Below, one piece after another: positions 5,835 through 57,469 of a stretch of DNA of 64,000 nt. The position numbers and the translations under genes were made by a program. Where the stretch lies: positions 2,005,001-2,069,000 of the forward strand of contig JAYKKI010000139.1 in the NCBI GenBank assembly GCA_039881145.1, given 5' to 3'. The notes beneath the pieces are model-generated. The model had not been told where the DNA came from and ran no database searches. It was given only the letters and a program-made list of their open reading frames with translations. Position 1 is the stretch's first letter; each line of letters begins with the position of its first letter. The DNA is from Druceiella hillmani (Eukaryota > Arthropoda > Insecta > Lepidoptera > Hepialidae).

Positions 5835-5887
5835 TGCAAAAGTTTTGCAGGCTAATGGAATACCCATTAGTCTGCAAAAGTTTTGCA
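5835..5887. repeat. Hairpin-forming inverted repeat (left arm)
   Basis: TGCAAAAGTTTTGCAGGCTA.. (5835-5858) pairs with 5864-5887 across a 5-base loop, 24 positions with two mismatches. Each half itself contains the near-palindrome TGCAAAAGTTTTGCA. Confidence 0.7.
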
Positions 5888-6498
5888 ACCTTCTTATCCA
5901 GTCCCTAATATTTTCAATGTATTTTTTCACAATATCCTTGAAATATATTAAGGATATGTAAAAAAATGCAATATTTTTAAAATTGTCACTACACGTTACC
6001 CCTATTCCGTTCAACTACGTCTGTTATGATATGTTTTCAACCACCTTGTGACTAGCATTGAATCCTGGACATCACTCTAAACCAAAAATCTCGCCGAGAA
6101 AAACTGAAATTGTCTTAACACAGCAAATTTGCTGCGCCCCGAATTGAATTATTTTAAACACATTTTAGTATCATCGTTAGACAAAGGAAATAAACGTCTT
6201 ATTAAGATGAATTAAATGCACACATCATGATTAGTTTGCTGCTTGCCTTTAGTAATTTACTACGATCACCATTCAACATTATTAACAGACCTTAGATATT
6301 GAGTGAGGCCATAGGTCTTGCAAACCAATTGAATAAATTAAAATGTGATGGAATTATTACTTGTCGTTTTGTTGTCCATTCTCTATGAAGTTACTGTGAC
6401 CGCCTTTGGTACCGTTATCAAACTATGGATGAAAAACGATGGGTCTATGACTCGTCGTTATGAAATTGTTATGAATACTTTTCGGAACCATTATCAGA

Positions 6499-6587
6499 AC
6501 ACTGACGTCTAACGAAACCTAGGTCGTGCTAAAGAACTTAAAGAAAGTAGAAATAATACTACATCACGTAGTTTCATTTAATTGTGA
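6499..6587 (-). repeat. Hammerhead-TIR family, half element (left arm)
   Basis: One terminal repeat: CGAAACCTAGGTCGTG followed by the shared AAAGAAAGTAGAAATAATAC, ACATCACGTAG and TTTCATTTAATTGTGA end. The hammerhead-like core is damaged (stem II shortened, CTGACG in place of CTGAAGA). No opposite terminus is visible. Confidence 0.75.
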
Positions 6588-7488
6588 CTTTTTTATTCTT
6601 AAAAATTGCACCAGTGCTTCCATATTTAAATCTTTTTTTATATAAATATATATAACCATGATAAATTTTAGCTGCATAAAATTAATATTCTTCAAGTAAA
6701 ACAGCTGTGGTAAAACAGACGAAGAGACAGATAAATGTGGCAAATACTGTAAGCCTTTCTAGTTTGAGTGCGAGCCCTAAAAAGGAGGTGAAGCTTTATA
6801 AACATTATATTATTAAACTAGCACCTCACGACGTCGTTCGCCCAAAATTTATATGACAAGGCATTCTACAGTAGTGAACTAGATCTCACTGAAACATATC
6901 AGTTTTTAATTTTTTTTCATCTGTTTTAATTACAAATATTATTTATATCATATGAAAAACCAAACTTTTGAAAATAATATAAATATAAAAAAGTTCATGT
7001 CAAATATCAAAGTTCATGTCTTATATATAGACAATATAACTTTTTAACAACGAATTTTTAAAATCAGTCCATTCATTTTCGAGTTTATTTTTTACATACA
7101 AATAAATAAAAATGAAATTACACCCTCTCTTTATAATATTAGTGTTTATTTGACATATGTGAAAAAATATGCCACGACCTACACTTATAAAAGTGCAATA
7201 GCCAGCCCACATATATTACTTTGACGAAACCGAGAATATAAATCTAACAAACGTTGTAGCAGAGTTTGTGACACAGGATTAACAAAGGTAGCCCAATTGC
7301 ATGTAACGTCACCTATGTGAATTACAATACTGTGTGACTGCAAAATCATTGATAAAAACTTAATTGTTAACCGCTTATAATACTTTATGTAGTGTGCAAT
7401 ATCTTCAATATTGTTAAGATAATTGAACTATTGATTCGATATTCATCGGTCTAATAAATAAAATTATTAACACTTAATTTTTATCCAC

Positions 7489-7760
7489 CATTAAATGAAA
7501 CTACGTTGAGTAGTATTATATCTACTTTATTTAAATTATTAAAAACAACTTAGGTTTCGTTATATAACAATATCTTCAGGTGGGTAATTTCAAGAGATTG
7601 TCATGTCACCTGAAGATGTTGTCACACAACAAAACCTAGGTCGTGGTTAATAATTTAAGTAAAGTAGATATAATACTACATCATGTAGTTTCATTTAGTT
7701 CTGAAAAAAATTAAAGGATTATGAATTTCTACCAAATTAAAGCCAAATATATTCAATAAT
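7489..7760 (-). repeat. Hammerhead-TIR family, fold-back element (left arm)
   Basis: Two inverted terminal repeats, TAAATGAAACTACGTTGAG.. at 7491 and ..CATCATGTAGTTTCATTTAG ending about 7700, each about 95 bp. Both include the CCTAGGTTTCG / CATCTTCAGGTG motif in opposite orientation. The plus-strand hammerhead core is CTGAAGA at 7610-7616 with the GUC site ending at 7642, but the conserved GAAAC is AAAAC. The one-sided tail (GAATTTCTACC..GCCAAATATATTC) follows to about 7760. Confidence 0.8.
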
Positions 7761-8857
7761 ATAACTAAATTCAAGAAGTTATTACTATTTTGTACACTGA
7801 TGCAATAATTTTCATTACAGCTAGTTTCACATAATAATATGGAGTGACACTAATGTTCTCAGCACGACTCTTTTTAAATAGTCGTTCATAGAATTGATAA
7901 TTTTTTGATATAATTAAGGACAAAATAAAACAACGATAAATAAGACCTGCCAAGCGCGAGTTGTGCTAGTGACATGAGGTTCTCTTAACCATTTAAGACT
8001 CACAAATAGTAACTTAGAAACATTTAAGGATAAATAGTATTTTTACTAAACTATTTACAAATATACATTTTTCAAAACGTAAATTTATTTAGCTTACAGT
8101 TTTGCAGGAGTAAAAAATTTGGTCTGTATTTCTAAAATTGTATAATCGCTATAGTTACCCTTTAATAATCAAATAACATTTTAACAACCTTGTTTTTTCA
8201 TGATTTATAACTCAATGCTTCGAAAATAAGAAAGAGCGAATGCACCATTTTTACATACTTTCTGCAATATATTTTAAATATGAAATTTAAAAATAGGAAA
8301 AAATATTTCCGATTTTCTCAAGCCCTTTCAAAGGATGGCATATAACACATTAAATTTAAAAACTTTTAAGAGATCTATTTACTCACCCTTTAATTCTTAC
8401 GTAAATATTTTTAAAAAATTAGCTGTAAAATTTAAAGTGCAGTATGTGTAAGTCATTAAAATATATTACTTTGCCAAATTTCAATTCTCAACATCGCATT
8501 GTTTCTAAGAAAATTAGTGGTGAATTTAGGATTTAGACTTTCCTGTATCTGTTATCTGCTATATCTTTTTTAGGTGTAAAAACACTGAATATTTCAAAGA
8601 CTGAAATCAAGAATGTGCTAAAATTGTCATCTAACTTGTTCGTGGGCTTGTTAAAACTCATTTTCTTATTATGTTTTGTTAAGTTGTTTCAGAAATAAGA
8701 GAACGCGAAAATATTTTTTTGCAAATTATTCATTATATTTCTTAATATATTATCTACATTTAAAGTAAAGAAAAGATATATTGGTGTTAATCAAGATGTG
8801 TGCAGTTTAATATATTTTATTACAAGTCCAAATTTCAAATGTCTATATGTATATATG

Positions 8858-8860
<3 letters not shown>

Positions 8861-8945
<85 letters not shown>

Positions 8946-8972
8946 TATACATACACACACACACACACACAC
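8861..8972. repeat. (AT)n / (AC)n compound microsatellite
   Basis: Uninterrupted AT dinucleotides of about 74 bases followed by a CA-rich run. The overlapping YIYI-type open frames on both strands are artefacts of this tract. Confidence 0.97.
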
Positions 8973-9631
8973 ATGTATATATATACCACAATTATATATT
9001 ACCTGAAAATTAACGAATACCTGCCAATATGGCTCATTACATTCTTGGTAGTTAATTTCCATTATAAATTATTGATGACTGTAAAACCAAACCGCATACC
9101 GCGTTAAAAAGCATAAACAGGAGAATGACACAATGTAATTAGTTCGTGTCTGTCAGCATATCAATACGTCTGTCATCTCTAACTTGTTTGAATATTTTTC
9201 AATGAAGAGTTCTGACATCAACACAAGTCATGAATGTTTCCATTGAAATTGGTGGCATTATTCAGGCTTATTTGTCGTACGACCTTTACATTTCAATATG
9301 CGCATAAAGAATGTCTTTCGTAATGGACACTAGATTAAAGTCATTTTTGGGTTTTTAGTATAAAACGGATGTTTCTTAACTATCTTTGCCATTTATTTAT
9401 TTGTTCAGTGAGACGAAGTCGATTTAAGCACTTTAAAATTTGTTAATTCGCTTGTGTCTTTTAGACAATTATAACTTACACACTGGTTAGTTATCGCACT
9501 TGAAATAAAATTTCTGTTACGAAATTTCGTAAGACCAGTTATTGTAAAAAGGAACATAATTTTTAAATTTAATTTTTCAAAAATGATACTAAATACTTCC
9601 TGTAACATTTCAGTTTATGATAGTTGTGAAC

Positions 9632-9772
9632 ATGAAGAAATTGACAGTAATACTGGCTGTATTAGTAATAGTTTCCTGCGATATACCAAATCTCAACTTT
9701 GGGGCCGTGGATCCGCTCCAGTACAAAAATGATGTTGCAAAATTAAATTTTTTTCACAGTGACTGCATTTGA
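9632..9772 (+). pseudogene. CSP gene remnant, signal-peptide portion (left arm)
   Basis: An ATG opens a 46-residue frame starting MKKLTVILAVLVIVSC, a good secretory signal peptide (basic start, hydrophobic core, small residue before the likely cleavage site). It continues through IPNLNFGAVDPLQY and stops at TGA 9770-9772. A few bases upstream of that stop is a textbook splice acceptor (T-rich tract then CACAG at 9755-9759), followed by the CSP C-terminal coding segment. Chemosensory proteins are small secreted carriers of hydrophobic ligands in insects, and their first exon normally ends shortly after the signal peptide. No usable GT donor joins this piece in frame to the next. The central part of a CSP, with the first two cysteines, is absent. 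Assignment to the same gene as the downstream segment rests on position. Confidence 0.55.
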
Positions 9773-9918
9773 AATTGTTGTTACATCGTGTGAATTTTGC
9801 GACAAGAACGAGAAGGCAGTTATCCACGATCTTATATCGTTGATAGCCCAAAAACAAACAAAAATCTTGAAGGCAATCTTGAAACGGTACGACCGTAAGT
9901 GTGCGTACAGCCCGTCGT
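9760..9918 (+). pseudogene. CSP (OS-D/A10 family) C-terminal exon, truncated (left arm)
   Basis: After the acceptor at 9759 the frame reads TAFEIVVTSCEFCDKNEKAV and on to KRYDRKCAYSPSY. It has the CSP signature C-x2-C. The distance from the first of these cysteines to the YDP-like motif is the same 33 residues as in typical CSPs, with a trailing aromatic residue. In this arm the P of YDP has become R. Homology with the other arm ends immediately after the SPS residues, and the frame then runs into Tc1-like sequence to 10160, so the apparent 133-codon protein is a chimaera of decayed parts. The N-terminal half with the first cysteine pair is missing. What is seen: motif, spacing, acceptor. Inferred: it is a dead CSP gene. 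Confidence 0.7.
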
Positions 9919-9944
9919 ATAATATTAGCAAAGCTCGTATAATA

Positions 9945-10437
9945 CTAGCTAATATACATATCATTGATCGTCCAAATTTTTTCGTTACAAATATCATATT
10001 TTGGGTAAAAGTAACTTATGAAGATCGTACGGAGTCAGTTTTTGTTGAAAATGGTTCTCTGAATGCACAACGACACATCGAGGAAGTCCTAATTCACCAT
10101 GTACAATCAGCACTAGCCATTCGAGGAGCTGCTGCTGCCTTAATAGACGATAATCCTTAAGGGTGAAAAAGTAGACGCTTATTTGACTGAGGTCGGGATT
10201 TACCGTTTATAATGGCCAGCATAAAGTTTCTACCTCAATCATTTGAGAATCTATGAAACATTCTTAAACAAAGTGTTAAAGCTATTTATGCAGCCCCACG
10301 GTACGTCCGAGAGCTATAAACAGTTACGTCCAATGGGGGTCTATTCCCAAAAACACTTTAAAAACCTCATCCCGGGCATACCATAAAGAATTGCAGCAGT
10401 AATTTTGGTGAAAAGAGGCCACACGCGGTACTTATTT
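9945..10437 (+). pseudogene. Tc1-like (Tc1/mariner superfamily) transposase relic, C-terminal half
   Basis: Three consecutive frames read like the catalytic half of a Tc1-type DDE transposase. First, SVFVENGSLNAQRHIEEVL then ALIDDNP (the second catalytic Asp in its DDN context). Next, from about 10165, AYLTEVGIYRL then WPA, the block that in intact Tc1 proteins leads to SPDLNPIEH. Last, near 10340-10437, KHFKNLIPGIP-stop-RIAAVI and RGHTRY, the normal C-terminal signature. Stops and frameshifts separate the blocks, so it is dead. The N-terminal DNA-binding domain and the terminal inverted repeats were not found. The relic begins within tens of bases of the end of the left palindrome arm. Confidence 0.85.
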
Positions 10438-12190: not shown

Positions 12191-12420
12191 TTATTGCTTG
12201 TAAATGTCTGGAATACTGGAAAAATTTGCCTTGGAAGGAAATGCGTTGACATTGCGGATAAACGACGGGCTGTACGCACACTTGGGGTCGTACCGTTTCA
12301 AGATTGCCTTCAAGATTTTTGTTTGTTTTTGGGCTATCAACGATATAAGATCGTGGATAACTGCCTTCTCGTTCTTGTCGCAAAATTCACACGATGTAAC
12401 AACAATTTCAAATGCAGTCA
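12191..12420 (-). pseudogene. CSP (OS-D/A10 family) C-terminal exon (right arm)
   Basis: Mirror copy of the left-arm exon, read on the minus strand from the same T-rich/CACAG acceptor. It keeps the consensus YDP (the left copy has YDR) and the C-x2-C motif. After SPS it continues FIRNVNAFPSKANFSSIP and ends DIYKQ-stop at 12191-12193. This tail is longer than the usual CSP C-terminus and I cannot say whether it is native. Because it lies in non-duplicated DNA beyond the arm edge, this copy may preserve the original 3' side that the left copy lost to Tc1-like sequence. The missing middle of the gene is missing here too. Confidence 0.68.
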
Positions 12421-12548
12421 CTGTGAAAAAAATTTAATTTTGCAACATCATTTTTGTACTGGAGCGGATCCACGGCCCCAAAGTTGAGATTTGGTATATC
12501 GCAGGAAACTATTACTAATACAGCCAGTATTACTGTCAATTTCTTCAT
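12408..12548 (-). pseudogene. CSP gene remnant, signal-peptide portion (right arm)
   Basis: Minus-strand mirror of 9632-9772, with the same start, signal peptide and stop. It overlaps the start of the C-terminal exon by 13 bases because the frame reads through the acceptor. Both arms lack the same central CSP segment, so the break happened before the duplication. The two remnants point toward each other across the spacer. Confidence 0.55.
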
Positions 12549-13206
12549 GTTCACAACTATCATAAACTGAAATGTTACAGGAAGTATTTAGTATCATTTT
12601 TGAAAAATTAAATTTAAAAATTATGTTCCTTTTTACAATAACTGGTCTTACGAAATTTCGTAACAGAAATTTTATTTCAAGTGCGATAACTAACCAGTGT
12701 GTAAGTTATAATTGTCTAAAAGACACAAGCGAATTAACAAATTTTAAAGTGCTTAAATCGACTTCGTCTCACTGAACAAATAAATAAATGGCAAAGATAG
12801 TTAAGAAACATCCGTTTTATACTAAAAACCCAAAAATGACTTTAATCTAGTGTCCATTACGAAAGACATTCTTTATGCGCATATTGAAATGTAAAGGTCG
12901 TACGACAAATAAGCCTGAATAATGCCACCAATTTCAATGGAAACATTCATGACTTGTGTTGATGTCAGAACTCTTCATTGAAAAATATTCAAACAAGTTA
13001 GAGATGACAGACGTATTGATATGCTGACAGACACGAACTAATTACATTGTGTCATTCTCCTGTTTATGCTTTTTAACGCGGTATGCGGTTTGGTTTTACA
13101 GTCATCAATAATTTATAATGGAAATTAACTACCAAGAATGTAATGAGCCATATTGGCAGGTATTCGTTAATTTTCAGGTAATATATAATTGTGGTATATA
13201 TATACA

Positions 13207-13236
13207 TGTGTGTGTGTGTGTGTGTGTGTATGTATA

Positions 13237-13312
<76 letters not shown>
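13207..13312. repeat. (TG)n / (AT)n compound microsatellite
   Basis: Right-arm partner of 8861-8972. The AT run is shorter (about 64 bases) and the TG part has a different length, so the tract has mutated independently in each arm. Confidence 0.97.
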
Positions 13313-13316
<4 letters not shown>

Positions 13317-14414
13317 CATATATACATATAGACATTTGAAATTTGGACTTGTAATAAAATATATTAAACTGCACACATCTTGATTAACACCAATATATCT
13401 TTTCTTTACTTTAAATGTAGATAATATATTAAGAAATATAATGAATAATTTGCAAAAAAATATTTTCGCGTTCTCTTATTTCTGAAACAACTTAACAAAA
13501 CATAATAAGAAAATGAGTTTTAATAAGCCCACGAACAAGTTAGATGACAATTTTAGCACATTCTTGATTTCAGTCTTTGAAATATTCAGTGTTTTTACGC
13601 CTAAAAAAGATATAGCAGATAACAGATACAGGAAAGTCTAAATCCTAAATTCACCACTAATTTTCTTAGAAACAATGCGATGTTGAGAATTGAAATTTGG
13701 CAAAGTAATATATTTTAATGACTTACACATACTGCACTTTAAATTTTACAGCTAATTTTTTAAAAATATTTACGTAAGAATTAAAGGGTGAGTAAATAGA
13801 TCTCTTAAAAGTTTTTAAATTTAATGTGTTATATGCCATCCTTTGAAAGGGCTTGAGAAAATCGGAAATATTTTTTCCTATTTTTAAATTTCATATTTAA
13901 AATATATTGCAGAAAGTATGTAAAAATGGTGCATTCGCTCTTTCTTATTTTCGAAGCATTGAGTTATAAATCATGAAAAAACAAGGTTGTTAAAATGTTA
14001 TTTGATTATTAAAGGGTAACTATAGCGATTATACAATTTTAGAAATACAGACCAAATTTTTTACTCCTGCAAAACTGTAAGCTAAATAAATTTACGTTTT
14101 GAAAAATGTATATTTGTAAATAGTTTAGTAAAAATACTATTTATCCTTAAATGTTTCTAAGTTACTATTTGTGAGTCTTAAATGGTTAAGAGAACCTCAT
14201 GTCACTAGCACAACTCGCGCTTGGCAGGTCTTATTTATCGTTGTTTTATTTTGTCCTTAATTATATCAAAAAATTATCAATTCTATGAACGACTATTTAA
14301 AAAGAGTCGTGCTGAGAACATTAGTGTCACTCCATATTATTATGTGAAACTAGCTGTAATGAAAATTATTGCATCAGTGTACAAAATAGTAATAACTTCT
14401 TGAATTTAGTTATA

Positions 14415-14690
14415 TTATTGAATATATTTGGCTTTAATTTGGTAGAAATTCATAATCCTTTAATTTTTTTCAGAACTAAATGAAACTACATGATGTAGTA
14501 TTATATCTACTTTACTTAAATTATTAACCACGACCTAGGTTTCGTTGTATGACAACATCTTCAAGTGACATGACAATCTCTTCAAATTACCCACCTGAAG
14601 ATATTGTTATATAACGAAACCTAAGTTGTCTTTAATAATTTAAATAAAGTAGATATAATACTACTCAACGTAGTTTCATTTAATGGTGGA
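14415..14690 (+). repeat. Hammerhead-TIR family, fold-back element (right arm)
   Basis: Mirror of 7489-7760 with the same two motif-bearing termini and the tail TTGAATATATTTGGC at its 5' side. Confidence 0.8.
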
Positions 14691-15585
14691 TAAAAATTAA
14701 GTGTTAATAATTTTATTTATTAGACCGATGAATATCGAATCAATAGTTCAATTATCTTAACAATATTGAAGATATTGCACACTACATAAAGTATTTTAAG
14801 CGGTTAACAATTAAGTTTTTATCAATGATTTTGCAGTCACACAGTATTGTAATTCACATAGGTGACGTTACATGCAATTGGGCTACCTTTGTTAATCCTG
14901 TGTCACAAACTCTGCTTCAACGTTTGTTACATTTATATTCTCGGTTTCGTCAAAGTAATATATGTGGGCTGGCTATTGCACTTTTATAAGTGTAGGTCGT
15001 GGCATATTTTTTCACATATGTCAAATGAACACTAATATTATAAAGAGAGGGTGTAATTTCGTTTTTATTTGTTTGTATGAAAAAAATAAACTCGAAAATG
15101 AATGGACTGATTTTAAAAATTCGTTGTAAAAAAGTTATATTTTCTATGTATAAGACATGAACTTTGATATTTGACATGAACTTTTTTACATTTATATTAT
15201 TTTCAAAAATTTGGTTTTTCATATGATATAAATAATATTTATAATTAAAACGGATAAAAAAAAATTAAAAACTGATGTGTTTCAGTGAGATCTAGTTCAC
15301 TACTGTAGAATGCCTTGTCATATAAATTTTGGGCGAACGACGTCGTGAGGTGCTAGTTTAATAATATAATGTTTATAAAGCTTCACCTCCTTTTTAGGAC
15401 TCGCACTCAAACTAGAAAGCTTATAGTATTTGCCACGTTTATCTGTCTCTTCGTTTGTTTTACCACAGCTGTTTTACTTGAAGAATATTAATTTTATGCA
15501 GCTAAAATTTATCATGGTTATACATATTTATATAAAAAAAGATTTAAATATGGAAGCCCTGGTGCAATTTTTAAGAATAAAAAAG

Positions 15586-15675
15586 TCACAATTAAATGAA
15601 ACTACGTGATGTAGTATTATTTCTACTTTCTTTAAGTTCTTTAGCACGACCTAGGTTTCGTTAGACGTCAGTGTT
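15586..15675 (+). repeat. Hammerhead-TIR family, half element (right arm)
   Basis: Mirror of the left-arm copy at 6499-6587, carried along in the inverted duplication. Confidence 0.75.
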
Positions 15676-16285
15676 CTGATAATGGTTCCGAAAAGTATTC
15701 ATAACAATTTCATAACGACGAGTCATAGACCCATCGTTTTTCATCCATAGTTTGATAACGGTACCAAAGGCGGTCACAGCAACTTCATAGAGAATGTACA
15801 ACAAAACGACAAGTAATAATTCCATCACATTTGAATTTATTCAATTGGTTTGCAAGACCTATGGCCTCACTCAATATCTAAGGTCTGTTAATAATGTTGA
15901 ATGGTGATCGTAGTAAATTACTAAAGGCAAGCAGCAAACTAATCATGATGTGTGCATTTAATTCATCTTAATAAGACCTTTATTTCCTTTGTCTGACGAT
16001 GATACTAAAATGTGTTTAAAATAATTCAATTCGGGGCACAGCAAATTTGCTGTGTTAAGACAATTTCAGTTTTTCTCGGCGAGATTTTTGGTTTAGAGTG
16101 ATGTCCAGGATTCAATGCTAGTCACAAGGTGGTTGAAAACATATCATAACAGACGTAGTTGAACGGAATAGGGGTAACGTGTAGTGACAATTTTAAAAAT
16201 ATTGCATTTTTTTACATATCCTTAATATATTTCAAGGATATTGTGAAAAAATACATTGAAAATATTAGGGACTGGATAAGAAGGT

Positions 16286-16338
16286 TGCAAAACTTTTGCA
16301 GACTAATGGGTATTCCATTAGCCTGCAAAACTTTTGCA
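16286..16338. repeat. Hairpin-forming inverted repeat (right arm)
   Basis: Mirror copy of the 5835-5887 hairpin, with stem and loop unchanged. Confidence 0.7.
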
Positions 16339-19140
16339 AATTTAGAATACAGCTTGCAGACAAAGATGTAACCAAAAACACTAGAGAAGGTAGATTGGTA
16401 CATAGACAACAATAAATCGATATTGGAAGCTCGCATATTAGTGAAATTAAAGCATATTCATTCTATTATATGGCTCAGGTATAGAAGATTTTACGTAAGT
16501 AATTTAATATGTTACATTTTCATTAATTATCGAAGAATGAAACTTTAAATATATCGTTCAAAACTACGCTCTAATATAAGGTGGCTACTTTATTTTAAAA
16601 TTTACCCGACGGATTTAAATGAAATTTGTACAGAATGTCCTAAATCTTAAGCTTGATGAAATTTTTTTTCCAACCAAAATTCAATTTTTTTTAAAAATAA
16701 TTTACGAGTGATTATTTTCTCGAAATTCATAAAAAATTCCAAAGGACACCACTTTGCGAAATTTGAAAAAATCCATTGATAATTATCAAGATGAATTACC
16801 AAATTAACAATTTTTTTTATTAATTTAGATGAACCGTAAGAGAAAGAATCACAATCGACTTGAACCAAAATTTAGTTTTTTTTAAATTTTTACAATTTTT
16901 AGTTAAATATTGTCAAAAACTTGGTGTTATGTATTAAGTAAGAAACATTATAAAAGTTTTAAAAAAAAAATTTTGAAAATGCCTTTTCTTCACTCCTCTC
17001 ACTGCGCGTAACCCCTTAATTAACGGCAGTAACCCCTTAATTAAAACCGAGATATTTATATTAATAATGAAATTTTTAAACCGTTTATGGAAGATGTATG
17101 GCTTTGGGCTTATATTATTCAGCACAAAATTCTGATAATGAAATATTGGATAGTGCATACATAATGACATCGACCATTGGATTCGACAAAATAAACCCCG
17201 TTACAATTGGGCTGCAAATTATATAGGGAAGTAATAGTCTGAAATCAAACCAGGAATGGAATTTCTGTTAGACGTGAAACGTTTACTTTTGAATGGTATC
17301 ATGTAAAACATTTGCTTTTGAATGATATCCGCGATTATTTTGTCCATTTGCTGTTTAGGAGCAAGAATATTTTACTTTCTATAGGGTGTTATGTGGTATA
17401 TTTTTGGTTATTTTTATGAACTACAATAATGTTAAGTTATAAAAAAGGAAAAAATATCTACTTATTATGTCTTACCTGATTAGTTCTGTATAACAATTTT
17501 AAAATTTTTGTCGTTGACAAACTCAACTTCAGTGCCTTTTTTGCAACACATTGTTTTGTATTGGGTATCGAACCTTTTAATTAAAAAAGGAATATATTAG
17601 TTTTTCTATTTTGCAGCCAAAACTTTATAGGTTTTCGTAGTGAAAGAAGGGATTTTTATATTTCGTAATCTCCGTCCGTCAGCCATAATAGTTTCAAATT
17701 TATTTACTTCAAATTTGGCAAGCATATGTTTCATATGTAAAGATCTCAATTATAAGAAAATAATATGTTGGTCTTGCTTAAGTACTTTAAAATCATTTTG
17801 AGATTTCATATATCCTTCCGCATTTTTATGCATATATATAAACCTCCTTAAATTTCTGGCGTTAGTAAACTGCAACAAATTGGAGTGAGACAAACAAAGG
17901 GCATATTTATTTGAAATTAAATGAAAATTTAAACTGGAAACGTAGAAGGCTCCCACGTCATTGTAAATTAAATGAAATATTATCAAAGTTTGCGAGAAGC
18001 CGCTGTGAAGCTTTTTAATATTGTAAGTACGAATTCTCTCTAGGAGATTTATGCCATGTTTTCACTTTGAATTCTGACAGGTTAATTCATGCTGGAAGTC
18101 AAATAAGCGACAAAGTGTTTATTCTTTTATAATTATATGACTTTTATTAACATAGTTTTCAGCTGTTATAGTAAAAAAGACACGTTTTATTCATATCCGT
18201 CTATCTGTACCAACTCCTACAATTTTATATCTATTTATATGAAATTTTGTTAAGTGGATGCTTCAGGAAGGGACGTGAAAAATATTTTTTTTTCATTACT
18301 TTGAAATTATTAACGTAAAACTTTGGACAATATTTGGAATAAATTCCAAATTATTCATTAAAATGTATATCGGTAAGACAGATAAAAAATAAATAAATAT
18401 TTTGATTATACTTTCGATACAAATAGAAATTGTTAGTTATTGAGTTTAGTCAACTATACTCAAATGAAGTAATCGTAAACATACTTCACTTGGACTGATG
18501 GAATTCCAAAGCCACCTTGATTTGTCTCGATATAAATTGAACAATAATCACTCGGAATTTTAAAATTAATTTTCTTCTATGATTTGAACGATTTCAAGTT
18601 AATTGTATCGCCCATTTAAACTAAAATATTTATTATTTATTTTGTTAAATCTGGGGTGGATTCGATAGTGAAATTTTAGTAATTAAATTTCAGAGGTCGG
18701 TCTTTCATGTCACTAGAATAAAAGATGATTTTTTAAGCCATTATTCATGTTTTAATTTCAAATATTTATACACAACAGACTTCTAAATGCATTTTCTGAA
18801 ATTTTTGATGCAATTTAATCAAAATCATTTTGTTTGGAAGTTCTTATAAAATATTAGTATTTGAAATATTTAGAATGAGACGTATTGGAAATCGGTTAGG
18901 AGATAATCGCGACACTTTCTATCGAGGTAATTGCAAATATCAATAACTAGATTTAAAAGAAACATAGTACCGCCATATTTTTATATTTTAAAAATGAGTG
19001 AAGACTAGATTGAAATAAGAACAATCGAACTGAGAGTACACAGACTGAATCCATGATGCTTGATTTTATGGATTCGACACATAGACATGTGTCGATGTTA
19101 GATACGATGGGGTCATATGTTAGATACGAATTATTGAATT

Positions 19141-20752: not shown

Positions 20753-20845
20753 GGAAGAAATTTACACTCCAATGATATTTAACACGACATGTAGGCGTCA
20801 AAGCATGAAATTAAACACATTTAGAATCGTAGGATTATTTCGTCC

Positions 20846-20925
20846 TTCGAATTATCTTCATTAGGTAAATATAAAATATGCTCAATTCGAATTATCTTCA
20901 TTAGGTAAATACAAAATATGATCAA
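20846..20925 (+). repeat. 40-bp tandem duplication private to the right arm
   Basis: TTCGAATTATCTTCATTAGG begins at 20846 and again at 20886. The left arm has one copy only (about 2935-2975). Confidence 0.85.
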
Positions 20926-23584
20926 TTTTATGAATTTATCCGCTATCTCCTTTTGGAAGTGTCTGTTTCCTTTGTAGAGGTACCTTCCTATTATAAAATT
21001 GAAATTCGTGACAAAGTAGGGATTTCAAAATCATAATTCTTACAGGACACACTTCAAATGTAAAATTGACATAAGTTGCAATATAATATTGTTTATTTCG
21101 GCTACTACATTTGTTGTAACATTAATGTAATGTTTAGAGTATAGATAATGCCTTACGGCTTAAAGCGTGTGAATATTATCTAGTGAGCTGTAACCGTACG
21201 TGATCACATAATGTATATGAGATGCTTCTGTGCAGAACTGAAAAGGACATTCGAATTTTGCATCCAAAAATGTTGAAGAAACTAGAACTGTGTTGAAATA
21301 AAATTAAAAATTTTTGAATCTCACTAGCGTCACTGTCGTAAGTGAGAATAACATGCTACATTATTTAAAACCAATACGAAATTTATCAATAATCAATATT
21401 TACGAACATAAACCAAAAATTGGTACTTGCAAACATAAATAAAAATTCGCTATTTATTAACGTCGCTGGCTTGATGTTATTTCATTTTTATGATTCCGAA
21501 ATTAAATATTGAATCCTTATAATTTTTTGATATACGTACATGTGGCTATCCGTCTTTCATACTTTCGTAGTTTCTGTAGTTTTAGATATACCTGCACGAA
21601 ATAATACAACATAGGCTTCAGATTCCAAAATAGATTTCACCTTAAAGATCTTAATCAGAATGTAGTAAGTGTTTACCTTTCTTCATTTTTTATGGTAGGT
21701 CATCCTTACAAAGTTCTTTATAATTAAGTTTGGATTTATTTAACCACTTTTCAATTTATTCTTTTCATTTCTAAATAAAATTATCCAAAAGTCTAGAAAT
21801 AATTTTGTATAAATTGAGTATTTTAAAATGCAATTATTTCGTGCAATAAAATTTCATGAACTTTCAAACGGTCAAAGAAATCTCAAGCACATAAAAAATG
21901 TAGATCAAAATTATTGGACGACTGAGTAAAAAAAGTTAACATGAAATATTTAAAAACCGATGTTTAAAAATTATATCTGAATCTCTGATTCTCAATAAAT
22001 TAAGACCATTGTTTAATTGATTTTAATTATACTAAATTTACCTAGCTTTGGAATGAAGCAAAACATCGCCCAGGTGAAAATGTTTCACAAATCCAGTTTC
22101 AAAATAAGCTGAATGTTCATTGCATTTTTGATATAATTTCGTTTAGCACTGAGAATTCCGGTCTGCCTAGCGCTAGCACGCCGGTCGCTGTCGACATGAC
22201 TCGCGACGCAAAACTTTTTATATGGTACTTCTAACTCTGACATATTCATCCTATACCTTAATAAGATAATTAACAAATTGTGCGTGTCAGCTCCGACGAG
22301 CAATTGGAGTTTACTCCTTAAGTACGATCGTCTTGGAACGTTTAAAATAGATAAATGAGGTAAATAAACGCATCTATTATGATAGTCAACCCATGAATAT
22401 ACTTTTATTCATATTATTTGATTTGTATTAATTGCTTATCAACTGGAATGTCATCACCCATAACTGATATTTATATGTATTGGAAAGGTTTGGAAACTGT
22501 ACTACTTGTAACATTTCTCCTTTGAAAAAATCTCATCCCTCTAACATTAACAATACTTACAATTCATTTTCAAATGTATAAATAGTAATTCAGACTTGTA
22601 TCCATAGAACTTCTATAATTATATGTATCTGCAGGAAAGTAGCACCAATTAGAAATCAGAGTTAAATTGCCTTAACACTGATTTCATTTAGGGAGTTATT
22701 AACATTTATTTACTTTTTATATTTGATAATTTAAAAAATTCTTACAAAACATATATTGTGTATTTCTTTTTTATTTTATTTTATTTCATAATATTAAAAT
22801 GTGCATTAAAATTAGTTTGCATTGGATTGTTTATTTTACCTATAACCAGAATGTTAAAATGTGCATTGAATTAGTATGGACTAGATTATATAAGGGGGTT
22901 ATTTTTTTAATTCAGAAATTTATTAATACATATTTATTCTTCATATTTGGTAATTTAATAAAAAGTTGCAAAAACTTATTGAATTCCGACAAATTGAATT
23001 CGAGTATAAATGTCATCATTTATAAGCTACATTAAGTATAAATTCTAATATTGAAATGCAATGTATAGTTCAATTTACCCATAACTAAAACAAAATTATA
23101 AATATTATAATATTAAATTAGTTTGGACTGGATAATACAAACCATTCCTTAATGGGGTTTTAATATTCAAGTCCTATTTCATTGGTTAATACATCATTTC
23201 AGTGAACATTTGTTTTACTAACCTCTAACCAAATTGTGATGCAAATTAACAAATCTTAACCACGTAAATGCAAATTTAATAATTAATAAATAATTCCCAA
23301 TATTTTTGTGTAAGATTAAAAATATAAATGTTAATATTTTTTAGGTTTTAAATGTTTCAAACAAAGTGCTACACTGCATTTATAGACACAAATAAATAAT
23401 GAATTAAAACAAAATATGAGCAAAAAACAATACTTAAAATCATAAAATAGAATAAATAGTTTAAAAGAATTTCTTTTATTTTTCAACTCTATCTGCAATT
23501 TCATCACGGGCCTTCGCTTCTCGAACTTGACTTAACAAAGTATATTTGCGGATTCCATGGAGCCCTTCGTTGTCTCTGCTCCAC

Positions 23585-23845
23585 TTATGCCTCATGCCAT
23601 TTCATTTTATTTCTTCCATCCGATGAAACAAATAGACATTGGCTCAAAGTGAGCCGGATATCCGAATGATGGCCGCTGGTGCGTCTCCTGTGTATTGATA
23701 CATTCATGTCCATGTCCAAAATGGTTTTCTGCACCTCACCCCTAGCCAGACCAGCAGGAACATCTTCCGTTGCCTCGAACGATGTAGGCAAAGTTTCCGC
23801 GGCTTCAACAAAAACTTCATTTCTATTCGTCGCATGTTACTCAGA
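23585..23845 (-). pseudogene. Unidentified coding-like frame at outer part of right arm
   Basis: On the minus strand a frame of about 85 codons reads NRNEVFVEAAETLPTSFE and on through VPAGLARGEVQKTILDM to HSDIRLTLSQCLF and NKMKWHEA-stop. Its base composition is clearly richer in G+C than the surroundings and its amino-acid make-up is protein-like. The left-arm partner at 1-92 has a small indel that breaks the frame. Coding-like sequence appears to continue past the stop to about 23,480 in another frame (EAKARDEIADRVEK). I do not recognise the family. It may be a decayed transposon or host exon. Confidence 0.4.
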
Positions 23846-24465
23846 CGGATCTGTAGATAATTGACACTAATTAATTCATTGTCAATTCATGAATTTCACC
23901 AATTTTAAATTTCAACATATTTTTGCATATCACTAGTTTCTTAAATTAATTTTACATTACAATCTACTTTCGTTTGTTATACTGCTTTTTCATGATTAAA
24001 TTTAAATTCGAATAAAATTCACTTCAAATAAATCAATTTAAAAGCTTATTTATTAATCAGTTCCTAAAAACATTATTAATAAAAGATTGAATGTATATTT
24101 ATCAAAATTCGCATTGTTTACCTCAATTGAAATGATGGGCAGAATCGTTTTTTGGAACTTTTACAATTAGCTCTGGCGCTATTATGGAAACGACAGGGTT
24201 AATCTGGAACTCTCTTCTCTGCTTGACTTTCATATTAATTCAAAATCAACACAGTTGACTTCCTTTTGCCTAAAGAAACAAATGAACTACACGTTTCTTA
24301 GCACAACATTAAAAAAGAAATTACATTCGTCCAAAGAAATGAATTCTGTTTTCATAAAAACAAATAAATTTTGACTTCATCTTGAACGATAGGAAAGTAT
24401 ACTATGTAATCTAACTAAAGAGATTTAATTTATTGTCACTAGCTGCACGAAGAAAAGTGCCGATC

Positions 24466-24467
<2 letters not shown>

Positions 24468-24534
<67 letters not shown>

Positions 24535-24540
24535 TATATG
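24468..24540. repeat. (AT)n microsatellite abutting a LINE
   Basis: TA/AT run of about 62 bases, then ACATATATATATG, directly followed by LINE coding sequence. Confidence 0.95.
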
Positions 24541-25590
24541 GCATCCCCATGAAAATGCTCATCATCAAGGAGATGTACACGGACTACCAGTGTCAAGTCT
24601 TGCACGAGGGAATCCTGACGCAGTCCATCAGCGTCAATGCAGACGTAAGACAGAGGTGCATTCTCTCCCCAACACTATTCCTGCTTGTCCTTGACAGGGT
24701 GATGCGGAAATTTATAAATGGCAGAAGGCAAGGAATCCAGTGGGGATTGATAGACAGGCTGGAGGACCTCGACTTCGCTGATGACATTTGTCTTTTGGCG
24801 GGGCGCTTCAGAGACATTTACGACAAGCTGAAGAGGGTGCAAGCCGAAGCAGAGAGAGAGCGGGCCTCAAAATCAACGTCGGAAAGACGAAAGATATGCG
24901 CCTCAATACAACCGTTGATACACCTCTAAAGCTGGGCGACAAGAATGTCGAAAAGGTGACAAGAATGTCAAGAATGTCAAGAGAGCTTTCAGCACCTCGG
25001 AAATATGGTGACGAGGGACGGAAGAGCCGAGGAGGATGTGAAGAGCGGAGTGAGAAAGGCAAATGGAGCGTTTGTCCAGCTATACCCGGTGTGGAGAAGT
25101 GAATTCATTTCCAAAAGACGAAGATCAGACTCTTCAGCACCAACGTCAAATCCGTCCTGATGTAAGGCTGTGAGACGTGGAGGGTCTCCAAAGGTCTCAC
25201 TCACCAACTACAGGTCTTCGTGAACAGATGCCTTCACCGCATCACGAACGTGAGGTGGCCGGAGGTGAAGAGGAACGAGGATCTGTGGGCTGAAACGGAC
25301 CAAAAACCCATCGCAGACCAGATTGGGGAGAGGAAGAGGCGTTGGATTGGCCACACGCTATGAAAGGCTGACGAAGCCATCGAGAAGGCAGCCCTCGACT
25401 GGAACCCCCAAGGAGCAAGACGATGTGGCCGACCAAGAAAAACCTGGCAGAGAACGGTCCAGGAAGAAGCAAAGACAGCTGGAAAGACCTGGAGAGAGGT
25501 TAAGCAACTGGCAGCTGACTGCATCAAATGGAGAAATTTTACGTCTGCCCTATGCTCCGACCGAAGCGACAGAAACTGATGATGATATAT
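24540..25590 (+). pseudogene. Non-LTR retrotransposon reverse transcriptase, 5'-truncated and frameshifted
   Basis: Translation in successive frames matches the C-terminal two thirds of a LINE endonuclease/reverse-transcriptase protein. The blocks are: MLIIKEMYTDYQCQVLHEG; VRQRCILSPTLFLLVLDRV (RQG motif with G changed to R); LEDLDFADDICLLAG with the catalytic F-A-D-D at 24774-24785; GLKINVGKTKDMRLNT in the next frame; then VKSV and GCETWRVSKGL; DLWAETDQKPIADQIGERK; RRWIGHTL; ALDWNPQGARRCGRPRKTW; and a terminal ALCSDRSDRN-stop near 25,580. Frameshifts near 24,860 and 25,100 and stops near 25,160 and 25,362 make it inactive. The endonuclease domain and the first RT motifs are absent, so the copy is truncated at the AT tract. 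The 3' end passes into a TGATGATGATAT tail. The exact clade was not resolved. Confidence 0.93.
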
Positions 25591-42440: not shown

Positions 42441-42450
42441 ATTTTGAATA

Positions 42451-43432
42451 TTGAATATATTTGCCGTTAAGTTTGTTGAAATTCATTATCACTTAACATT
42501 TGTTAACAAGTAAATGAAACTACGTGATATAGTATTATATCTACTGTGTTGAAATTATTAACAACGACATAGGTTTCCTTGTATGACGACATCTTCCGGT
42601 GGGCAATATGAAGGATATTAACCCGTACAAAATTTCCAATGGTATTTAAATGTTATACAAGACAAGAGCGGGAGTGGGATTTGAGTGAGTTTTCCCTCTT
42701 TTTACATCAGTGACTTTGAAGTGGGTTAGCAATATTATTTATATTATATTTTAGAAAGTTATACAATATACTAATATTTTAGAGAGGGTAATAAATAAAT
42801 TTGATGCTATTTTATGAGGTTCTACAATGTCAAGGATGTCCAATGTGTGGAACAATGTTATATAACTAATTATACATATCTCCCATTTTGTTATCTTTTT
42901 TAATGTATATACTTAGATGTATGACCGGACTGAAACAATTTGAATTGAGCTACAGTATCAATGTTGTTTAACCATAATATGTCTAGTAGATATTGAGTAT
43001 GAGTAATGATATTTTATTGAGTTGTTCATTTAATAATTAACATTGGTGTCGTTTATATGTCTGTATATTTCTAATATTTCTAGGATGTTGAGTTTATTGC
43101 CTTCTGTATTTATTGTTTACCTCACTTAATAACAACAATTGAATTTATTACCCTCACTAAAATACTGGTATATCGTATAAATCTCGGAAATATAATAAAA
43201 CCTACACCGCGCCCCTGCAATAAACTCAGTAACATAAGCAGTGGTAAAACCCGCACAAACCCGGTTTCCGCTATTGTGTTTGAATAATATAAATGCTGTT
43301 GGATATTCCTAAGGGTTAATCTTTGCTAATATCCCACCTGAAAATGTTGTAATACAACGAAACCTAGGTCTTGGTAAAGAAATTATAGAAAGTAGAAATA
43401 ATACTACATCACGCAGTTTCATTTAATTGTGA
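42451..43432 (+). repeat. Hammerhead-TIR family, long copy with internal region
   Basis: Tail TTGAATATATTTGCCG at 42451, left terminal repeat to about 42605, then about 720 bp of internal DNA, and the right terminal repeat about 43325-43432 ending TTTCATTTAATTGTGAG. The right repeat carries CACCTGAAAATG..CGAAACCTAGGTCTTGG, a hammerhead-like core with G8 changed. The interior shows no long open frame. It is the only copy here with a sizeable interior, so it may be closest to a parental element. No clear target duplication was seen. Confidence 0.75.
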
Positions 43433-43823
43433 GTAAATATTTAATGACTTGAATTTATATCACTGAGCGATTTTAAATCCTTTTTTGTACGGTCAAGTAA
43501 AGCTACACTTCTGCTATAATTTTAATACGTAATTTCTAAGGTATCATCACTTATTTTTCCCTTTATTTTATTTTCGTAACTTGGACCAGGTGGCAAATTT
43601 CCCAGAGGATATTTATTCTAATTAGATTTTTATGAACATTGTCAAATTTTGCTCAACTGCTAAGTTTTAGCCCCGGTTAGTCCATTATTAACAACTTTAC
43701 TTTTCTAATTAAAGCTTGATCATTCTGGATTTATTGTTAGGATTACCGAAGTGGAAATTAGGTATGGAAATAAACCACGTTAACTTGGACATATGAAAAC
43801 AGTCAATACTCAACAATTTTCGT

Positions 43824-46689: not shown

Positions 46690-47200
46690 GACCTATCAGA
46701 GCAAAAGGCTGTCTGACAAGTATGTATTTATCACCTATTAGATTTAACATTTATAAAGATTTCATCATGAGAAAAGTTCTGAAATGATGGAAAGGATTTT
46801 CTTTAACAGGAAATTTACATATGCTAAAGATGCTACATTCTTCGCATCATCAGAGCAGGAACTCACAGAATTTTTCAAAAAAGTGGAGCAAGAGAGCGAA
46901 CAGGTTGGACTCTCGAATAATAGAAAGAAAACCAAAATTTTGATTATTAGATTATAATTATACAGAGGTATCTAACTCTTACCGACCGAGAAACTTATAT
47001 GAGGAAAGTAAAAAACATTACGTCAAAATAAATTAAATTTATTTAGTAAGAATTTAAGTTTATAAGCGAATTAATATATAGTGAATCTGTGATAAGCAAT
47101 TAAGGAAAATACAAAAGAATGATCAAGCAAAGAATTCATATAGCCAAAGCAACAGTGAAGAAGTTCAACAGAAGATGGCAGGATAGGCCACAGTAGAGAT
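46690..47200 (+). pseudogene. LINE reverse-transcriptase relic
   Basis: GCLTSMYLSPIRFNIYKDFI then MRKVLK (46,709-46,776) is the 'RQGC.LSP.LFN.Y.E.I.R' motif. After a frameshift KFTYAKDATFFASSEQELTE, FFKKVEQESEQVGLSNN and RKKTKILII carry the YADD region with the first D changed (YAKD). Around 47,118-47,190 IKQRIHIAKATVKKFNRRW matches the later 'EI..RI..AK..F' block. The catalytic motif is mutated and the frame broken. Confidence 0.78.
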
Positions 47201-50116: not shown

Positions 50117-50128
50117 ATGTTAAAAATT
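50117..50128 (+). repeat. Target-site duplication, left
   Basis: ATGTTAAAAATT, repeated exactly at 50341-50352 on the other side of the element. Confidence 0.85.
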
Positions 50129-50340
50129 GAATATATTTGGCGTTAATTTTGTAGAAATTCATTATTCACAATTAAATGAAACTACGTGATGTAGTATTAT
50201 TTCTACTTTCTTTAATTTCTTTAACCACGACCTAGGTTTCGTCGTATTACAACATCTTCAGGTGAGATATTGGCAAAGATTTGTCAGAAATTAAAGAAAG
50301 TAGAAATAATACTACATCACGTAGTTTCATTTAATTGTGA
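50129..50340 (+). repeat. Hammerhead-TIR family, best-preserved copy
   Basis: Starts GAATATATTTGGCG (a tail of about 37 bp, on this side only). It then has a 54-bp inverted repeat beginning CACAATTAAATGAAACTACG at 50168, the hammerhead motif on the minus strand, a short linker, and the matching inverted repeat ending TTTCATTTAATTGTGA at 50340. A perfect 12-bp direct repeat ATGTTAAAAATT flanks it (50117-50128 and 50341-50352). Confidence 0.88.
50225..50264 (-). ncRNA. Putative minimal hammerhead ribozyme
   Basis: Read on the minus strand: CAC, CTGAAGA, T, GTTGT-AAT-ACGAC, GAA, ACC-TA-GGT, C, GTGG. This supplies all conserved hammerhead core elements: CUGANGA (50255-50261), GAAA, and a GUC cleavage triplet with scission expected after the C at 50229. 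Stem I is CAC/GUG and stem II has five pairs including one G-U. Stem III is ACC/GGU with a two-base loop, too small to be stable alone but palindromic, so pairing between two copies is plausible. That is the known behaviour of minimal hammerheads in Penelope-like elements. A weakness is one unpaired U between the core and stem II. Confidence 0.6.
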
Positions 50341-50352
50341 ATGTTAAAAATT
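50341..50352 (+). repeat. Target-site duplication, right
   Basis: Exact copy of the 12 bases at 50117-50128. Confidence 0.85.
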
Positions 50353-51319
50353 ATTATACAATTCATATTTATAGACATCCATGAATTTTTCAGATTCCTA
50401 GGTATTAAAATAAATTAGGCAGAAAAGTCGTGCAATCTAAACAATTTATTTGCAAGACCTGTCTTCTTCTCTAGCAAAGAGACAACTCTTTGCTTATAAT
50501 ATGAGTTCTACTGGTTTAATTTTGTTTAGCTTTTCATCTCTCAGATCTTATAGATTGTTTATTTTTATAAGTTTCGCAACACGTGAATGTGTTTAGAATA
50601 CGGAGCTATGTAACTATTTGTGAGGCATTTCTCTTAGCGCAGGAAATATTCCGTCACTAAACTTAAACACGACACTTCTGAGTGAGTAAGACTGCGGGAA
50701 AAAGTCATTATTATGTAAACTTAAGACCTGGAAAAATCAAGGGAGTGGACGGATAATATAAGTGTTCAGATTCATTGTTGAAGCTGATGTTTGACTATAA
50801 ATTTCCTAATTCTGTATCATAAATCGTTGGTATGTTTATCTGGATTATATATATACATATATATAAATATAACTCAAAAATCGACTTAATCATCGTTGAT
50901 AATGAAACTACGTAAAAATTAAAAAAGAATTGTTTTTTTTATTTGTGATATCGAATGCGATATTAATTGGCATAAACGGTATGTATTAAATATACAATAG
51001 ATGTAAGAAAAAAGTTCATGATTAGACTAATAAAATTATAAAGTTTTGTCAGTATGTTAATGTTTCTTTAAATATTTTATAATTTTGGGTTCTTTGGATG
51101 GAATAGAAAACATGGGAAAGTTTATGACTGAAATTTTTTAGCTATGTTTATAATCAAAATTAAGACCAAAGGATTTGCTTATTCACTTCAGTTTAAAAAA
51201 AAGGAAAAAAATTATTATTCCGTTATTCGATCTCAGTACTTTTGAATTTAGAATCTAACGCTTTAACGCTTTGCCAATGGCTTACTGAGAGGAGTGATTA
51301 AGTAAAGAAGTACTTGCTA

Positions 51320-51880
51320 GATACTTCAATGTCAGTGTCAAAATAGCACGATTTCATAATCGTGCAAAATGTTCTCATGCACGTTTCTTATTTTCACAAG
51401 TTCCTAATAATATCAAAATGACAATAGTAAGAACTTTAGTCTTCTCCATTTTCCTGTACGGTTCTGAGTCGTGGAAAATTAGATCGGTGGAGCGCAAGAA
51501 GATAGACGCATTCGAGATGTGGCGTTGGAGACGAATGCTGGGCATATATTGGGTAGCCTGAAAAACAAACGTATTGATTCGACAACAACTCAGAATCAAA
51601 ACAACTCTGTCTACCATCTGATATCAAAGAATTCTCAATTACTTTGGTCACACTTTACGCAAGGAACCAGATAACTTAGAAAAGCTAATCGTAATCGGGA
51701 AAGTCAATGGTATGGAACCCGCGGTAGATTTCCTACCCGATGGACTGTCCAGGTTATTACGCAAACAGGTATCACAATTACATATATTTTTAGGAAAGCG
51801 GAGACATAGTTGAATGGAAACAAAACTTATAAACGCAGCCACCAGGACTTTTTAGGATGGATACGACCCTCAGTAATCAA
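51320..51880 (+). pseudogene. LINE reverse-transcriptase C-terminal relic
   Basis: In largely one frame: TIVRTLVFSIFLYGSESWK, VERKKIDAFEMWRWRRMLG, IYW, then KTNVLIRQQLRIKTTLSTI, RILNYFGHTLRKEPDNLEKL and VIGKVNGMEP, and finally DGYDP. This is the order of conserved blocks after the thumb in many insect LINE proteins ('VFSVLLYG.E.W', 'EAFEMW..RRML.I.W', 'R.L.FFGH..R'). Four or more stops interrupt it. The minus-strand frames overlapping it (51375-51842) are shadows. RT catalytic motifs upstream are lost. Confidence 0.85.
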
Positions 51881-54767: not shown

Positions 54768-54866
54768 TTGAAAGAAGAAATAATACCACAACGCGTAGTG
54801 TCATTTTGTTGTGAATAAAAATTAAGTGATAATGTATTTCTATAAAATTAACGCCAAATATATTCA
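54768..54866 (-). repeat. Hammerhead-TIR family, terminal fragment
   Basis: Decayed terminal repeat (GAAATAATACCACAACGCG..) followed by GTGAATAAAAATTAAGTG and the tail AATTAACGCCAAATATATTC. It shows that the tail and terminal repeat belong together, here on the minus strand. The hammerhead motif is lost. Confidence 0.65.
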
Positions 54867-54869
54867 AAA

Positions 54870-57215: not shown

Positions 57216-57232
57216 CAATATTAACATCTCTT

Positions 57233-57452
57233 GATGTTGAATATATTTGGCGTTAATTTTGTAGAAATTCATTATTCACAATGAAATGAAACTAAGTGAT
57301 GTAGTATTATTTCTACTTTTTTTAATTTCTTCACCACGACCTAGATTTCGTTGTATTACATCTTCAGGTGAGATATTAGCAAAGAATCCTAATTCTTTAA
57401 AATTAAAGAAAGTAGAAATAATACTACATCACGTTGTTTCATTTAATTGTGA
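57233..57452 (+). repeat. Hammerhead-TIR family copy with 12-bp target duplication
   Basis: Same layout as the 50.1 kb copy: tail GAATATATTTGGCG, inverted repeats beginning CACAATGAAATGAAACTAAG and ending TTTCATTTAATTGTGA. TTAACATCTCTT is duplicated at 57221-57232 and 57453-57464. The minus-strand hammerhead motif has lost part of stem II and reads GAAAT, so it is probably inactive. Confidence 0.85.
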
Positions 57453-57469
57453 TTAACATCTCTTTTAAG

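Follow-up and report, generated by a model that had tools for sequence, protein, structure and literature searches.

The closest described relatives of the repeat analyzed here are Penelope-like elements (PLEs) that encode an endonuclease (EN). For Penelope/Poseidon-type elements such as Adineta vaga Pen2a, Anolis PAc, and D. virilis Penelope, the published accounts describe a reverse transcriptase (RT) with a C-terminal GIY-YIG domain in a single ORF, pLTRs that are often inverted head to head, with an optional tail of 30-40 bp at one end and target duplications, and a hammerhead motif close to where the ORF starts (PMC11167929, PMC3846280). A rotifer PLE is reported to possess pLTRs in inverted orientation, one of which has a tail of 31 bp, together with duplications of 8-10 bp, and the same paper proposes self-priming on antisense RNA (PMC3846280). 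A curation guide mentions that PLEs may have a second copy in tandem, pLTRs in inverted orientation, and a short extension at the 3' end (PMC8969392). The protein of the Anolis element PAc, presented in 2024 as the first PLE active in vitro, is described as cutting the target on both strands and extending each of them; it prefers ATT, reverse transcription begins inside the RNA at two neighboring sites that mark the limits of the tail, and ribozyme mutants still insert (PMC11167929).

The window, meaning the whole 64,000-nt stretch of Druceiella hillmani DNA that was analyzed, contains at 50117-50352 a repeat (copy D) in which a ~153-nt unit with a hammerhead core is present as two arms placed head to head, with one tail of 39 nt and a target duplication of 12 bp. 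Positions in the unit are given as U coordinates in ribozyme sense, using as a ruler the long arm (U1-153) of a real copy, L247; L numbers denote loci of the same genome as the window. The left target duplication, ATGTTAAAAATT at 50117-50128, is matched at all 12 positions by the right one at 50341-50352, as the first-pass annotation had reported for its cleanest copy. Between them lie, on the minus strand, the tail with its distal end (U115-153; 50129-50165) and the long arm (U1-114; 50166-50280; L241 arm U1-153, 97.4%), with U1, the presumed transcription start, at 50280, followed by a central filler, ttgtc (50281-50285), and, on the plus strand, the short arm (U60-114; 50286-50340) with its proximal end TTGTGA. 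The minus-strand hammerhead core elements with a GUC site that had been noted earlier are present as CUGAAGA...GAAA...GUC on 50264-50226, with the predicted cut at 50229|50228. The inverted termini, given previously as 54 bp, are real, with an identity that spans 55 bp (50166-50220 versus 50286-50340), and the tail, given as 37 bp, is indeed confined to the left side and measures 39 nt (U115-153), its outermost two bases lying inside the duplication. No frame of at least 65 aa was found across copy D (212 bp), in keeping with the earlier description of the repeat as non-autonomous; the other half of that description, ribozyme-bearing, stands at the level of a motif. Copy F, the second copy for which a separate 12-bp duplication had been claimed, does carry TTAACATCTCTT at 57221-57232 and 57453-57464, and consists of a tail-bearing arm with the core motif (U2-153; 57237-57385, minus strand) and a short arm (U62-114; 57400-57452, plus strand), with four extra bases, GATG, separating the duplication from the tail. 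In a random-pair control for the duplications of D and F, an exact 12-mer occurred at the same shifts in 16 of 20000 pairs.

Besides D and F, the window holds four further independent copies (A, B, C, and E), which the first-pass annotation had not named; two of them, A and B, are also duplicated. Copy A is a single arm (U38-114; 6511-6587, plus strand) for which neither a partner arm nor a duplication was found, and copy B (7461-7757) is an older two-armed copy with a core-like motif on both strands and a degenerate 14-bp duplication (11/14); their duplicates, A' (15586-15662, minus strand) and B' (14417-14713), lie in an inverted segmental duplication. This duplication pairs 3059-9921 with 12259-19140 at 98.2% identity over 6.9 kb and extends outward at 87-96%; 1-3057 also corresponds to 20755-23679. 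Copy E is a single, diverged, tail-bearing arm (U70-153; 54770-54867, plus strand), and no duplication was found for it. Copy C (42441-43436), for which no convincing duplication was found, is a longer two-armed insertion whose left arm (minus) comprises a remnant of an endonuclease C-terminus, a 3' region, a pLTR, and the tail, and whose right arm (plus) is pLTR only. The remnant, 24 aa of Penelope ORF C-terminus at 43036-43107 on the minus strand (tblastn E 3.7e-5), is 71% identical over those 24 aa to the endonuclease frame of L299, described below, and because this end of the parent ORF lies inside it, copy C reads as a longer insertion of the same kind as the short copies. A TATAAA at 43288-43293 (plus strand) stands at -31 of U1 (43319) in its right pLTR. 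Elsewhere in the window, an open frame at 9747-10157 (plus strand) gave a weak match to OS-D, an insect chemosensory protein family (18.9 bits, cut-off 25). LINE-like reverse transcriptase fragments were present at 24429-24926 and 46757-46954 (RVT_1, 17.8 and 20.5 bits, both below the cut-off), the former being 65% identical to a database protein; a protein search with a window LINE fragment returned three RT fragments, and 51298-51558 looks LINE-like by eye, with no Pfam match.

We consider it probable that such insertions form when both strands of the target prime internally at two sites ~39 nt apart on an uncleaved transcript, the resulting cDNAs being joined head to head. The PLE protein would nick an AT-rich target on both strands, with about 12 bp between the nicks, and each target 3' end would prime reverse transcription internally on the PLE transcript, at a distal site (~U153) that leaves the tail and at a proximal site (~U114). 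Both cDNAs would extend toward the RNA 5' end (U1), ending there or before, and would be joined via filler or microhomology. Since only ~150 nt separate U114-153 from the 5' end of the RNA, the products would be short, promoterless, ORF-less inserts from the 5' end of the transcript, and initiation in the downstream pLTR would yield long or coding copies. As the best explanation, each short copy would be the product of one insertion by the resident PLE protein. Read directly from the sequence are the anatomy, the duplications, the single tail, the varying junctions, the parent ORF, the pLTR identity, and the read-through of the cut; priming on both strands, an internal start, transcription from U1, and end joining are what we infer.

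The genome holding the window comprises 2.586 Gb in 181 contigs. With copy D as the query, 40 places were scored among 3123 first-look candidates, and all 40, D and F included, were examined. Such a query favors copies that resemble D in having one long arm with the tail, a short second arm, and a similar gap between them, which we count against the two-strand model, as we do the tail arms of just 33-40 nt in the unselected copies L287 and L291. A less biased sample consisted of 18 segments, each 10 kb long and taken at round coordinates (180 kb in all), in which four copies were found (L285, L287, L288, and L291); four copies per 180 kb would mean a genome copy number of about 50,000 in order of magnitude, with a wide error. 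Further copies came from the window and from the flanks of other loci. The two-armed set thus assembled numbers 48, of which 40 are query-selected and eight unselected (the four just named, the second copies in L269 and L277, and window copies B and C).

Target duplications, defined by at least 10 matches and at most one mismatch (lengths 11-14), were present in 32 of the 40 query-selected copies and in 10 of 1560 mismatched flank pairs, in favor of the two-strand model, a test of the genomic copies that the first-pass annotation had proposed; perfect duplications were found in 24 of 40 versus 3 of 1560 control pairs of unrelated flanks. The unselected copies outside the window passed the same bar in six of six cases, scored with wider shifts and without a control run, and the duplication of L242, once the correct arm is taken, is a perfect 14. 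Against the model, a convincing duplication is missing in eight of the 40, and in the window that of copy B is degenerate and copy C has no convincing one.

The arrangement of the arms was uniform. In 50 of 50 two-hit clusters the RNA-3' sides face outward (left arm minus, right arm plus) and the other order was seen in none, in favor of the two-strand model. One arm ends near the proximal site U114 (...TTGTGA); the other ends near U153, the distal site (...ATTCAA), and the stretch by which it is longer at this end is the tail. When a tail was scored wherever the outer-arm alignment reaches U145 or beyond, a script found exactly one in 39 of the 40 query-selected clusters, which again supports the model; the one cluster flagged as tail-less, L242, holds a copy with one tail inside an older copy. 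As the query is itself one-tailed, the query-selected copies speak against two tails only. The eight unselected copies, with one tail in seven by script and in copy C from its two arms, argue against both the two-tail and the no-tail alternatives. Inverted pLTRs with a 39-nt tail at one outer end are the structure of all 48 two-armed copies, A and E being single-armed. The site boundaries are less tidy in some copies: the alignment of the other arm passes U114, to U122-137, in ten copies, and this stretch is flank in L244, L259, and the first L269 copy (perfect duplication) and, by an 11/12 duplication, in L277, with L261 and L275 supported by 9-bp matches only. Counted against the two-strand model are proximal ends upstream of U114 (U97 in the second L269 copy, U106 in L287, and U107-113 in five others) and the single-armed copies A, E, and one in the flank of L255.

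Each of the 30 copies whose joins were listed has a center of its own, with 0 to about 30 nt of filler at the join, and across the 48 two-armed copies the start of the shorter arm ranges from U1 to U121. As the junctions are copy-specific, the inverted structure seems to be formed anew at each insertion and not inherited, which is in favor of the two-strand model. The earlier term, mobile element family, needs correction to this extent: the copies do not look like a family that propagates itself and hands down its inverted structure. One rival considered was a master element, MITE-like or hairpin, whose inverted repeats would be fixed and which a transposase would move. The copies have a superficial likeness to such an element in their inverted termini and target duplications, yet the junctions are copy-specific, the duplications vary in length (11-14), the tail is one-sided, and the unit is part of the pLTR of an element with RT and GIY-YIG domains; we rejected a MITE or hairpin DNA transposon on the varying junctions and the RT parent, and regard it as scarcely credible. 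The first-pass annotation had likewise set the repeat apart from classical MITEs.

The longer arm begins at U1-3 in 37 of 48 copies, again in favor of the two-strand model, although the query favored copies of this type. U1 is probably a transcription start: TATAAA stands at -31 in three pLTR copies (the right arm of window copy C, L299, and L302), and two other pLTR copies have AATAAA at -31 or TTTAAA at -32. Lacking the TATAAA-bearing stretch, the short copies are probably dead. The clustering of starts at U1-3 also bears on the possibility that both arms were full length at insertion, forming a near-perfect palindrome, and that the short arm resulted from later deletion at an unstable center. 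Both arms do reach U1 in L285, the second L269 copy, and L278, and some short arms keep the 5' end and lack the ribozyme region (L288, L261, and L270); deletion should, however, shift both breakpoints, and one of them sits at U1-3 in those 37 of 48, albeit under the same query bias. We think later deletion unlikely on balance. Short arms with the 5' end and without the ribozyme region (L288:5344-5586, L261, L259, and L270) look as if the enzyme had skipped the folded motif.

A further account of the inverted arms is self-priming, in which one nick gives one cDNA, and fold-back, or a self-primed antisense transcript, copies the second arm from the first. Such a route has been proposed in print for inverted Penelope copies of a rotifer, on the evidence of palindromes at inverted junctions (PMC3846280). 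Palindromic joins occur in L257, L259, and L278; they count against the two-strand model in that self-priming explains them too, and two joined full-length cDNAs would look alike. L272 likewise counts against the two-strand model, since it carries its own left junction repeated in inverted form and an internal tail: at L272:480-850 the inverted left junction, including the target duplication, is followed by another arm, and we read it as a snap-back or template-switch product. At the common variant U64, 24 of 26 copies have arms that agree (~14 expected), which fits the two-strand model and also the copying of one arm from the other. Across six variant sites there are 10 discordant arm pairs versus 21 expected; concordance at U56 and U94 is near random, against the two-strand model, and arm identity is 95.6% within copies versus 94.7% between copies. 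At U94 the two arms differ (C versus A) in L244, L246, L249, L251, and L259. What speaks against self-priming is that snap-back should copy the tail too, and tails at both outer ends were seen in no copy, the one second tail being the internal one of L272; many joins, moreover, consist of truncated arms and filler with no palindrome. Self-priming is thus rather improbable in our estimation, more so than later deletion.

A GIY-YIG search of the genome returned two places, L299 and L300. In L299, an older copy, the GIY-YIG frame spans 121 aa and scored 34.5 bits (cut-off 22.6); the locus also carries the unit downstream of this frame (U1-153, 89.5%) and, on the opposite side, the unit in inverted orientation (86%). 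A protein search with its endonuclease returned one relative, P0004, 50% identical. At L300 (1993-2202, minus strand) a 69-aa GIY-YIG frame scored 35.6 bits with no convincing unit copy nearby, and is perhaps a host nuclease fragment or exon. With the L299 frame as the query, the best 150 of 6151 candidate places included open frames of up to 864 aa, this longest one at C137:533978, of which 553 aa were read. That 553-aa open stretch (L301) matches RVT_1 at 54.5 bits (cut-off 29.6) and continues in the same frame into the start of a GIY-YIG domain, whose score (19.8 bits, cut-off 22.6) stays below the cut-off because the fetched stretch ends inside the domain; the two domains in one frame are in favor of the two-strand model. 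The ORF carries ...GLAMGSPLSPLLAELFMNHLE... and YVDD, and compared by sequence alone with solved structures it gave weak RT matches (best E 0.006). Its downstream pLTR (L302, 301 bp) contains TATAAATG followed by the unit, with U1-87 at 98.9% over 87 nt up to the end of the fetched stretch, a further point for the model. From the domain order (RT then GIY-YIG in one ORF) and the pLTR structure, we assign L301 to the Penelope-like elements, and the shared pLTR sequence points to such an element as the source of the short copies. The first-pass annotation had proposed to look for a parent with a Penelope RT, with or without GIY-YIG; a parent with both is found in the same genome, and the earlier Penelope derivation of the repeat agrees with a parent that joins RVT_1 and GIY-YIG in one frame and has the unit in its pLTR. 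A regular-expression scan of L241-L286 for RT and GIY-YIG motifs gave no match. Among the best 150 endonuclease places, all 25 neighbor pairs less than 8 kb apart are (-,+), head to head, in favor of the two-strand model, and no same-strand neighbors within 8 kb were present; tandem copies, usual in other EN-containing PLEs, were accordingly not seen in this set.

The hammerhead core pattern has nine matches in the window, where shuffled sequence would give 1.7, six of these matches being in three copies of the one family (B with its duplicate, D, and F) and three elsewhere. The covariance-model check proposed in the first-pass annotation came out negative: no Rfam hammerhead model matched the window at its gathering score, and in a permissive scan Hammerhead_1 reached 12.5 bits against a cut-off of 34. 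A loose-threshold Rfam scan gave miRNA-like matches, which we read as reflecting the long hairpin only. Reduced hammerhead forms are reported for PLEs in two reviews, and a missed Rfam threshold might therefore be expected (PMC6155905, PMC7761336). Genomic copies do retain the core residues, with all 12 kept in 39 of the 52 arms that cover the motif and each proposed helix pair formed in 41-52 of 52. Deviations average 1.5 per core position versus 3.9 elsewhere (position permutation p 0.013; within U16-62, p 0.036; earlier 30-arm test, p 0.026), which is modest evidence that the core is under constraint in the source elements, modest because the copies are related. The predicted monomer folds at -1.8 kcal/mol versus -7.2 for the best alternative fold, and the putative ribozyme is so far only a sequence motif. 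Minimal type I hammerhead motifs of PLEs were reportedly described by Cervera and de la Pena in 2014 and by Lunse et al. in 2017, and the motif found here is like them in its core residues, tiny stem III, weak predicted monomer, and pLTR location. Stem III of the unit is ACCUAGGU, which could pair 8 bp between two copies. Pattern scans of viral contigs gave no match at first, and the later matches among those listed were read as chance. An AUG overlapping the core lies 27 nt ahead of the predicted cut, comparable to PAc, which is described as cut 26 bp after its start codon. Unlike in the Anolis element, the frame from this AUG reaches a stop at its third codon in the unit, which counts against the two-strand model; AUGs at U26 (overlapping the core) and at U118 (in the tail) are both possible ORF starts.

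The predicted cut is read through by at least one arm in all 48 two-armed copies, in favor of the two-strand model, and the RNA copied into the inserts was, on this reading of the arms, uncut at the predicted ribozyme site, so that cleavage would not be required to make insert templates. Ribozyme-cut RNA as the usual template of the short arm was also considered and set aside, with starts scattered over U1-121; this argument is weak, as the query biases the distribution. Among the 48 shorter-arm starts, one is at U50, two at U51, one at U53, three at U54, and five at U58, the largest single count. The same read-through bears on a retrozyme origin, in which a ribozyme-processed circular RNA would be reverse transcribed. 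Animal non-LTR retrozymes are, like the copies described here, short and non-coding, carry a hammerhead motif, and probably depend on PLEs; the literature gives sizes of 170-400 nt, names autonomous PLEs as likely mobilizers (PMC7229834, PMC7761336), and describes tandem repeats expressed as circles (PMC7229834). The size range and the type I core motif thus suit a retrozyme. Unlike retrozymes, copies of the window family are inverted, start mostly at one RNA 5' position (U1-3 in 37), and in all 48 two-armed cases include the uncut site within an arm; tandems of whole units were seen in 0 of 48, L272 having two same-strand partial pieces, and the Hammerhead_1 score falls far below its cut-off (12.5 versus 34 bits). 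On account of the copied uncut site we set the circular-RNA route aside as very improbable.

The copies agree with a process in which both strands prime and each of the two start sites serves once per insertion, and the behavior of PAc in vitro also speaks for it. A more specific form of the model would have both 3' ends of the break prime the same transcript, at the distal and proximal sites ~39 nt apart. Two primers cannot share one site, so one RNA would give exactly one tail per insertion. The tail arms of L291 and L287, two copies only, end at U114 and U121, at or near the proximal site, and these stops fit a collision of the trailing reverse transcriptase with the leading one. We offer this one-RNA form tentatively and with some doubt; a dimeric protein with two RNAs and a fixed asymmetry is equally possible.

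In conclusion, the repeat is a Penelope-derived non-autonomous insertion, of a kind that is already known. Unlike known EN-containing PLEs, the window copies are mostly pLTR-only, two-armed, ORF-less, and numerous (4 per 180 kb). In a partial literature search no description was found of pLTR-only copies with the one-tail rule and copy-specific joins, which is not proof of absence. The many short natural insertions allow start, stop, target, and join to be read together, making both the two-strand model and the uncleaved template countable. The role of the ribozyme motif would not lie in making the template of these copies. The findings bear on how Penelope elements insert and on why their copies are inverted with a one-sided tail, and if both primers do share one RNA, the Penelope tail, an oddity remarked on for a long time, would be the footprint of the spacing between two priming sites.
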